Source: Alphaproteobacteria bacterium (GTDB taxonomy: Bacteria; Pseudomonadota; Alphaproteobacteria; Bin95). From it: 47,186 bases of DNA. This document shows, one piece after another, positions 17,086-19,317 of the stretch (within the stretch, counting starts at the first letter, position 1; each line of letters starts with the position of its first letter). The position numbers and the translations under genes are program-made. The DNA lies in assembly GCA_022826185.1 (NCBI GenBank), contig JAJDVH010000125.1, positions 1-47,186 of the forward strand, in the 5' to 3' direction. Below the pieces are notes generated by a model. It saw only the letters and a program-made list of their open reading frames with translations. It had not been told where the DNA came from and did not search any database.

Positions 17086-17643
17086 ATGCACGCCTCGGAT
17101 ATCGTCTTCGCCCTCAAGGAGGCCGCGGAAGGCCCGCATGCGCTCCAGAATGTCCGCCGCGTGCTGAACGACTGGCGCGGGCGCATCGACGAGATTGCGG
17201 CGGCGCTCGACTTCATTCCCGGCACTGACGGCAACGCCAACCAGGCCTTCTACCGCACGCCGGAGCTCAGCGTTCTCAAGGTGCTGTTCCCCTCCGGGCG
17301 GCGGACGCCGCCGCACGACCACGGCTCCTGGGCGGCGATCCTGGTGCTTTCGGGCTCGGAAAAGAACACAATCTACCGCCGCGGCGATGACGGCCTTGAA
17401 TACGCGAACGAGGCCGTGCTGACACCGGGCTCGCTGCTGACCATGCCGGCCGACGCCGCGCATGTGGCCGAATGCCTGGGGGACGAGCCGGCCATCGGGC
17501 TGCATGTCTATGGCGGCGACGTGCTGGGCGTCGAGCGCAGCATGTGGGACCCGGAGACGCTCGAAGAACACCCGCTCAAGTGGGACCATTACGAGGTCCT
17601 GGCGCAGAAGGCGTCCGGGGCCGGCAAGCCGCCGCTGACCTGA
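17086..17643 (+). CDS. Cysteine dioxygenase-like cupin (thiol dioxygenase family)
   Basis: A 185-residue cupin of the cysteine dioxygenase family. The three predicted iron ligands are His77 and His79 in PPHDHGSWA and His126 in DAAHVAEC. The N-terminal half is helical, as usual for this family. The enzymes oxidise a thiol (cysteine, 3-mercaptopropionate or related) to a sulfinate using O2 and Fe(II); which thiol is used here cannot be read. The start at ATG 17086 has GGAGGAGC upstream; a longer open frame through the divergent promoter region was rejected. It lies 53 bases before the selenocysteine peroxiredoxin gene on the same strand, suggesting a thiol/peroxide-related pair. Confidence 0.85.
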   Translation: MHASDIVFALKEAAEGPHALQNVRRVLNDWRGRIDEIAAALDFIPGTDGNANQAFYRTPELSVLKVLFPSGRRTPPHDHGSWAAILVLSGSEKNTIYRRGDDGLEYANEAVLTPGSLLTMPADAAHVAECLGDEPAIGLHVYGGDVLGVERSMWDPETLEEHPLKWDHYEVLAQKASGAGKPPLT

Positions 17644-17696
17644 CGCGCGCGTTCCGCGGCCGTTCCAATTTCCATTTCCCGTGCAGAAGGAGAGCC

Positions 17697-18143
17697 ATGC
17701 TCATGGCTGAAACCGGCAAACCCGCCCCGGCATTCCGGGTCGACAACCAGGACGGCGCGCCCGTCGGCCTGGAGGACTTCGCCGGGCGGAACCTGCTGAT
17801 CTGGTGGTATCCGAAGGCCGACACGCGCGGTTGAACCATCGAAGGCAACGGGTTCCGTGACCGAATCCAGGACTTCGAGGCCAAGAACACCGCAATCGTC
17901 GGGTGCAGTTTCGACACGCCGGAGGACAACAGGGCCTTCCGCGACAAGTTCTCCTTCCCGTTCGACCTGCTGAGCGATTCCGACAGGGCCATGTCGATCG
18001 CCTACGGCGCGGCGGCGGACGCCGGGGCCGAACGGCCGAAGCGCATCTCGGTGCTGGTCGGCCCCGACGGAAAGGTCGTCAAACGCTACGACGCGGTGAC
18101 GCCCGCCGACCACCCGGACGAGGTGCTCGCCGACCTGGGCTGA
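17697..18143 (+). CDS. Peroxiredoxin selenoprotein (Sec46 encoded by TGA)
   Basis: A 148-codon BCP/PrxQ-like peroxiredoxin read through an in-frame TGA at 17832-17834. The frame starts at ATG 17697 after AGAAGGAG and gives METGKPAPAF-type sequence, then LLIWWYPKADTRG-U-TIEGNGFRD. Peroxiredoxins have the peroxidatic Cys in exactly this place (TPGCTxE), so the TGA replaces the catalytic residue. The same frame then continues for 102 codons with family features (FDTPEDNRAF, FPFDLLSD, VLVGPDGKVVKRY) to TGA 18143. A SECIS-like hairpin follows at the right distance. A resolving Cys at U+5 is absent; the only Cys is Cys70. It should reduce peroxides using a thiol donor. The alternative is a nonsense pseudogene, but the codon identity and position make selenocysteine far more likely. 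Confidence 0.85.
17832..17878 (+). promoter_or_regulatory. Bacterial SECIS element downstream of the Sec codon
   Basis: GGGTTC (17850-17855) pairs with GAATCC (17863-17868), with one G-U pair, around the 7-base loop CGTGACC. A G is the second loop base and lies 23 bases past the TGA. An outer stem TCGAAG (17839-17844) with CTTCGA (17873-17878) extends it. Bacterial SECIS elements need a short stem with a G among the first two loop bases about 16-37 bases after UGA; this fits. SelB would bind here. Confidence 0.7.
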
Positions 18144-18153
18144 CCGGCGCGCG

Positions 18154-19317
18154 TCAGTCGAAGATGAAATGCGGGACGAAACAGGCGTCGTCGGTGGTGA
18201 CGGCGCCTTCGTCCTCGCGGATGCACATGCCGGCCGCCTCGCTCGCCACCAGCCAGACGCCGCACATCGGCCGCCGGCCGTCGAAGGACGGCAGCGGCGC
18301 ATATGCCTGGCGCACGAATCCCTCCGCGCCATAAGGCCCCTCGGGGCCCGTCACCGTCCGGCCGTTCGCCACGAGGACGATGTTCGCCCCCTCCCGCGAA
18401 AGGAGCGGCTTGCGGACATAGCGCCCGCCGAGCGCCTCCGCCCCCGGACCGCCCTCGAAATAGGTCGGCAACAGGTTCGGGTGGCCCTCGAACATTTCCC
18501 ACAGCAGCGCCAGCAGGCCCTTGTTGGACAGCACCGCCTTCCAGCCGGGTTCGATGAACCGGGCGCCCGACCGGGGAATGCGGCTGCCGAACTCCTCCTC
18601 CATCAGCCATTCCCACGGATAGAGCTTGAACAGCCAGCGGATCGGCTGGTCGTCGAGATCGGTAAAGCGCCCGTCTTCGGCAACGCCGATATCCTCGATG
18701 AACATCCGCTGCGTGGCGAGGCCTGCCTGCCGGGCGCAGTCTTCCAGATATTCGATCGTGCCGAGGTCCTCGTCGGTGTCGCGCGCGCAGGCAAGATGCA
18801 ACGGCCCCTCGACGCCGAACCGGCCGAAGGCGTCGACCAGCCGTTCGTGAAGCGAGTTGAACTGGTCGGACCCCTCGGGAATGAGGCCCTGCTCCATCGC
18901 CTGTTCCAGCCAGACCCACTGGAAGATCGCGCTCTCGTACAGCGAGGTCGGCGTGTCGGCATTGTATTCGTAGAGCTTTGCCGGACCCTGCCCGTCATAG
19001 CAAAAGTCCATACGGCCGTAGAGATTGCGTTCGCGGTTGCCCCAGCTATCGGCCACATACCCCCAGAACATTTCCGGGATCGCCAGCCGGCGCAGCAACT
19101 CCTCGTTCGCCACGGCCCGCTCGACGACCTCGAAGCACATCTGCTCCAGCTCCTCCGCCGGGTCTTCGAGGTCGTCCTCGATTTCCCGAAGCGTGAAGCG
19201 GTAGGCGTGGCTCTCGTCCCAGTAGCGCTCGCCATCGGGCGTATGGAAGCTGAAGCCGTGCTCGGCGGCCGTCCGCTGCCAGTTCTCGCGCGGCCTGACC
19301 GCCCGGCGCTCCATCAA
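18154..19317 (-). CDS. Glutathionylspermidine synthase-family ATP-grasp protein (YgiC-like)
   Basis: A 387-residue protein matching the C-terminal synthetase domain of glutathionylspermidine synthase, found alone in YgiC/YjfC-type proteins. Recognised parts are WDESHAYRFT, FCYDGQGPAKLYEYNADTPT near residue 106-125, FKLYPWEWLMEEEF, IEPGWKAVLSNKGLLALLW and the C-terminal YVRKPLLSREGANIVL nucleotide-binding loop. The family ligates a peptide-like acid to an amine with ATP; the true substrate of the stand-alone members is not established. It overlaps the YgiB-like gene by four bases, the same pairing seen in Escherichia coli ygiB-ygiC. Confidence 0.9.
   Translation of the reverse strand: MMERRAVRPRENWQRTAAEHGFSFHTPDGERYWDESHAYRFTLREIEDDLEDPAEELEQMCFEVVERAVANEELLRRLAIPEMFWGYVADSWGNRERNLYGRMDFCYDGQGPAKLYEYNADTPTSLYESAIFQWVWLEQAMEQGLIPEGSDQFNSLHERLVDAFGRFGVEGPLHLACARDTDEDLGTIEYLEDCARQAGLATQRMFIEDIGVAEDGRFTDLDDQPIRWLFKLYPWEWLMEEEFGSRIPRSGARFIEPGWKAVLSNKGLLALLWEMFEGHPNLLPTYFEGGPGAEALGGRYVRKPLLSREGANIVLVANGRTVTGPEGPYGAEGFVRQAYAPLPSFDGRRPMCGVWLVASEAAGMCIREDEGAVTTDDACFVPHFIFD

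Follow-up and report, generated by a model that had tools for sequence, protein, structure and literature searches.

A conserved PrxQ-like peroxiredoxin gene with selenocysteine predicted at the peroxidatic position in marine-type Alphaproteobacteria

In the window analyzed here (the whole stretch of 47,186 nucleotides of contig JAJDVH010000125.1), the plus strand carries at 17697..18143 a gene, referred to as prx, whose predicted product is a peroxiredoxin of 148 amino acids with selenocysteine (Sec) at residue 46. The frame contains a single internal stop, the TGA at 17832-17834 (codon 46), which is followed by 102 sense codons up to the terminal TGA at 18141-18143. When Cys was substituted for the internal TGA, the translation matched the Pfam AhpC-TSA domain with 94.9 bits (cut-off 26) and Redoxin with 60 bits, in agreement with an earlier note on this DNA, which had described an unshifted frame of 102 codons with family features. 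Two start codons are available, ATG 17697 and ATG 17703; the latter is where several relatives start and, judging from the sequence, 17703 may be the true start. A likely Shine-Dalgarno motif (AAGGAG, 17687..17692, plus strand) was read 4 nt before the first ATG and 10 nt before the second. Scanning for promoters and terminators gave nothing above chance. A cupin-like gene (17086..17643, plus strand; Cupin_2 23.5 bits, below the cut-off of that family) ends 53 nt before prx and is a possible operon partner. This arrangement was present at loci L051-L057 and absent at L058-L077; as it does not extend beyond the genus, it was not used to assign a function. As context, the minus strand at 18154..19317 encodes a glutathionylspermidine synthase preATP-grasp protein (PF03738, 490.8 bits).

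The putative Sec-UGA codon (17832..17834, plus strand) lies in the motif PKADTRG-U-T and falls in the alignment column of the invariant peroxidatic Cys of Cys-BCPs, exactly where it had been placed before; the Cys homologs L071 and L077-L079 align with Sec in this same column. The sequence marks of a Sec-containing peroxiredoxin were found, namely the pfam00578 domain, the PxxxTxxU motif as given in PMC13188914 and a TGA at the peroxidatic position. All other same-genus (seven) and same-family (three) genomes that hold the gene yielded an ortholog with exactly one TGA, so that TGA stands at codon 46 in 11/11 same-family genomes when the genome of origin is included. The TGA form was also found in about 15 further genomes; about 24 genomes, each assembled separately, share this codon. 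Scanning named genomes returned 29 loci, some of which are repeats of the same genomes (L059 and G008 are one genome, judged by the selA position); nearly all of them have TGA at codon 46, whereas this codon is TGC in the close form L071 and encodes Cys in three distant BCPs. The comparison with homologous strains proposed in the earlier note thus returned TGA at the same codon and a preserved downstream frame. Within the genus, the pooled pN/pS was 0.17 before the TGA, about 0.13 after it and still 0.13 beyond the hairpin described below; by this measure, the part of the protein downstream of the TGA is under purifying selection. Since relatives carry the same codon and selection acts downstream of it, the TGA is not a nonsense mutation. 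A dead gene ended by such a mutation, or by a sequencing error, is what an in-frame TGA in a draft genome of 279 contigs looks like, but this explanation is extremely improbable and was regarded as refuted by the conserved TGA and the downstream selection, with the constraint on the hairpin and the presence of the Sec machinery also speaking against it.

A predicted bacterial SECIS element (bSECIS), which combines an outer helix with an apical hairpin, lies within the coding sequence at 17836..17880 (plus strand). In the RNA fold, the apical hairpin (17850..17868, plus strand) consists of a 6-bp upper stem, GGGUUC/GAAUCC, closing the loop CGUGACC, and the outer stem is also of 6 bp. According to the bSECIS rule, the loop lies 16-37 nt from the UGA and has a G at one of its first two positions, with G or U often coming next (PMC13188914); in prx, the distance from UGA to loop is 21 nt, the second loop base is G and the next one U. 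The folding energy of the hairpin by itself was ordinary (z -1.25); this score was dropped as a proof of SECIS because it is too weak, and comparative tests were used instead. The sequence evidence for the hairpin is thus comparative rather than energetic. Among 24 sequences, synonymous codon diversity was 0.28 in codons +1 to +16 after the TGA versus 0.45 elsewhere (Mann-Whitney p=0.002). Only TTC is used for Phe +7 and only ATC for Ile +11, Arg +8 is CGT in 23/24, and the 6-fold degenerate Arg codon +10 is CGA or AGA only, its paired letters being fixed and its unpaired first base free. Over 20 distinct sequences, 99% of the cells of the upper helix were paired; the pair changes seen were G-U to G-C, G-U to A-U and U-A to U-G, and no compensatory double change was found in this set. 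A Rfam scan of 17600-18200 gave chance matches only and no SECIS family. The SECIS-type hairpin claimed earlier was therefore recovered in all its parts, with the correct distance, the G as second loop base and the outer stem of 6 bp, and synonymous variation drops exactly at this place.

The genome encodes a tRNA-Sec (72.6 bits, anticodon tca), adjoining selA and selB genes, and a selD that is part of a 748-codon frame (G000:C206, locus L018). The Sec-decoding trait (selA, selB, selC and selD in one genome) is consequently complete, and the search for these genes suggested in the earlier note found them all. The 748-codon frame reads as a fusion of Ndh (NADH dehydrogenase-like) with SelD, in which the SelD active site has Cys, and a frame for a Prx6-type 1-Cys peroxiredoxin stands beside it on the opposite strand. 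Among the genomes reached through loci, selA was present in 15/15 with TGA and in 0/2 with Cys (Fisher p=0.007). In the same-family genomes with TGA, selA or selB scored above the cut-off in all except G003, a bin of 730 contigs that is 9% contaminated, in which neither was found; with the family and loci sets merged, selA or selB was present in 24/25 distinct TGA-bearing genomes. That TGA is decoded as an ordinary amino acid, through a code change or general read-through, would equally leave the frame open, as would any code with TGA as sense. This is nevertheless very unlikely, given that prx and most of its relatives terminate in TGA, that tRNA-Sec (anticodon tca) and SelB are present, and that codon 46 encodes Cys in the orthologs from selA-lacking genomes. 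A second predicted selenoprotein, SelW-like (Rdx) with the motif CVAU, was found at G000:C210:12954-13148 on the minus strand (locus L080); it has an in-frame TGA, MSERTLSIEYCVA-U-NYEP..., and behind it a hairpin with the loop CGUGC. A report of 2006 listed no selenoprotein other than formate dehydrogenase (FdhA) for Sec-decoding Alphaproteobacteria (PMC1794560); against this picture, at least two others, Prx and the SelW-like protein, are predicted in this lineage.

An AlphaFold model calculated from a 28-row alignment showed a Prx fold (pLDDT 96.5), whose nearest solved folds are the Bcp proteins 3drn and 5enu (TM 0.85-0.90). Bcp structures were also the nearest in a sequence profile search, which placed prx closer to BCP than to AhpE. 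The active-site motif has a Gly before the catalytic residue, a mark of PrxQ (PMC5302317). With BCP/PrxQ proteins (thioredoxin-dependent thiol peroxidases such as 3drn, 5enu and X. campestris PrxQ), prx shares the fold, this Gly-bearing motif and the order of strands and helices, but it has Sec in place of Cys and no Cys at +5 from the catalytic residue; it is also shorter than many BCPs by a stretch around WVEKSMYGRKYMG. The earlier comparison with a classical BCP bearing the +5 Cys is loose, as 9/19 Cys-BCPs sampled from the class lack the +5 Cys and the NCBIfam BCP equivalog cut-off (NF006960, 140 bits) was not reached (95.2 bits). In the tree, the Sec sequences and the Cys form L071 make up one group (support 99/95), which is separate from the ordinary Cys-BCPs of the class. 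This L071 ortholog (Rhodospirillaceae) belongs to the same subfamily and likewise has no +5 Cys; it differs by its TGC codon, by giving no such hairpin on folding and by a genome without selA. The viral contigs searched held no relative, and the plasmids searched gave only distant matches of Cys-BCP type, under 40% identity among the matches listed. We put at roughly 0.93 the probability that the prx product is a conserved AhpC/TSA (BCP/PrxQ-like) peroxiredoxin of marine-type alphaproteobacteria with Sec predicted at the peroxidatic position.

The kind is already known, since 'Peroxiredoxin (Prx), COG1225/pfam00578, TxxU' is a listed selenoprotein family with an experimental reference (PMC9312934, PMC13188914) and 253 sequences of it were found in the GOS ocean survey (PMC2398784). 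The literature on this family cites a Sec-peroxiredoxin of Eubacterium acidaminophilum (Sohling 2001). Thus prx joins a selenoprotein family with earlier records from bacteria and from ocean metagenomes; it shares with this family the peroxidatic Sec, the PxxxTxxU motif, the pfam00578 domain and a hairpin behind the UGA. It differs in that its genus has TRG-U and not TPG-U, in the lack of a +5 Cys and in its alphaproteobacterial lineage. The NCBIfam model peroxi_PrxU (NF040737) gave only 28.3 bits, below its cut-off of 270 bits.

The SelB/Sec-tRNA(Sec) pathway is established in E. coli. Its parts were found in this genome, where SelB carrying Sec-tRNA(Sec) would bind the hairpin, located 21 nt beyond the UGA, and would insert Sec at this codon without termination. 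Beyond this insertion in vivo, we infer a peroxidase activity in which the Sec46 selenolate would attack H2O2 or an organic peroxide to give a selenenic acid; glutathione, thioredoxin or glutaredoxin, as external thiol and electron donor, would then reduce this acid and close a 1-Sec cycle. The resolving Cys at +5 that defines a 2-Cys BCP/PrxQ is replaced by Asn51 in prx and is found in none of the Sec members; Cys70 is the sole Cys of the protein, as had been noted. It is present in 12/24 Sec members, and L060, L061, L063, L064, L067 and L074 are free of Cys. Since no resolving Cys is conserved, an external thiol appears as the likeliest reductant, in line with the earlier suggestion that the cycle may need one. 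Thioredoxin, glutathione or glutaredoxin regenerate 1-Cys peroxiredoxins (PMC5811025), and by analogy the same might hold for prx. With proteins such as AhpE and 1-Cys type PrxQ, prx has in common one conserved redox residue and the probable need for an external reductant; it differs by Sec instead of Cys and by a sequence closer to BCP than to AhpE.

In this genus, oxidized Sec46 might instead form a selenenylsulfide with Cys70, to be reduced by thioredoxin. Cys70 is indeed fixed in all 8 genus members as well as in L058, L059, L062 and L065, and in the AlphaFold model it lies at the end of the strand 65-71. In PrxQ, the resolving positions are +5 or helix alpha-3, and this site is not known to be one; moreover, Val, Ala or Ile takes its place in half of the Sec clade. 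Such a role is weakened because only half of the members have Cys70 and several have no Cys at all, and we consider it unlikely. To judge from the sequences, prx in this genus is probably a 1-Sec peroxidase. More tentatively, the clade may represent a distinct 'Sec-only' PrxQ with no partner thiol in the chain, kept over many genera. If so, its direct reductant would have to be a redoxin or a low-molecular thiol, in departure from the usual PrxQ disulfide logic. The Cys-free members lend themselves to a clean test of how a peroxiredoxin functions when selenium is the sole redox atom. The clade-wide absence of a resolving Cys is the only feature of added interest.

Among 385 genomes sampled evenly from the class, 12 carried the TGA form at E<1e-60; these 12 fall into four family groups. 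Weaker TGA-bearing matches occurred in a few more genomes. The TGA form is uncommon in the class but not unprecedented, which agrees with its earlier description as a less common alphaproteobacterial case of a kind known in bacteria. We found no paper devoted to a Sec-peroxiredoxin of sponge symbionts or of Alphaproteobacteria. Genes of this kind are split by automatic annotation, so that a functional antioxidant enzyme is missed in these genomes. A second, more divergent type of TGA-bearing peroxiredoxin match was seen in the class sample (G142, G238, G333, G386 and G404; E about 1e-42 to 1e-46), in some cases alongside the close form in one genome; a divergent match in G327 has a TAG in addition to the TGA. 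Finally, the gene on the contig NHFY01000054.1 (L072), which is recorded under Flavobacteriales, is almost the same as that of the alphaproteobacterial L067; this contig is probably misbinned.
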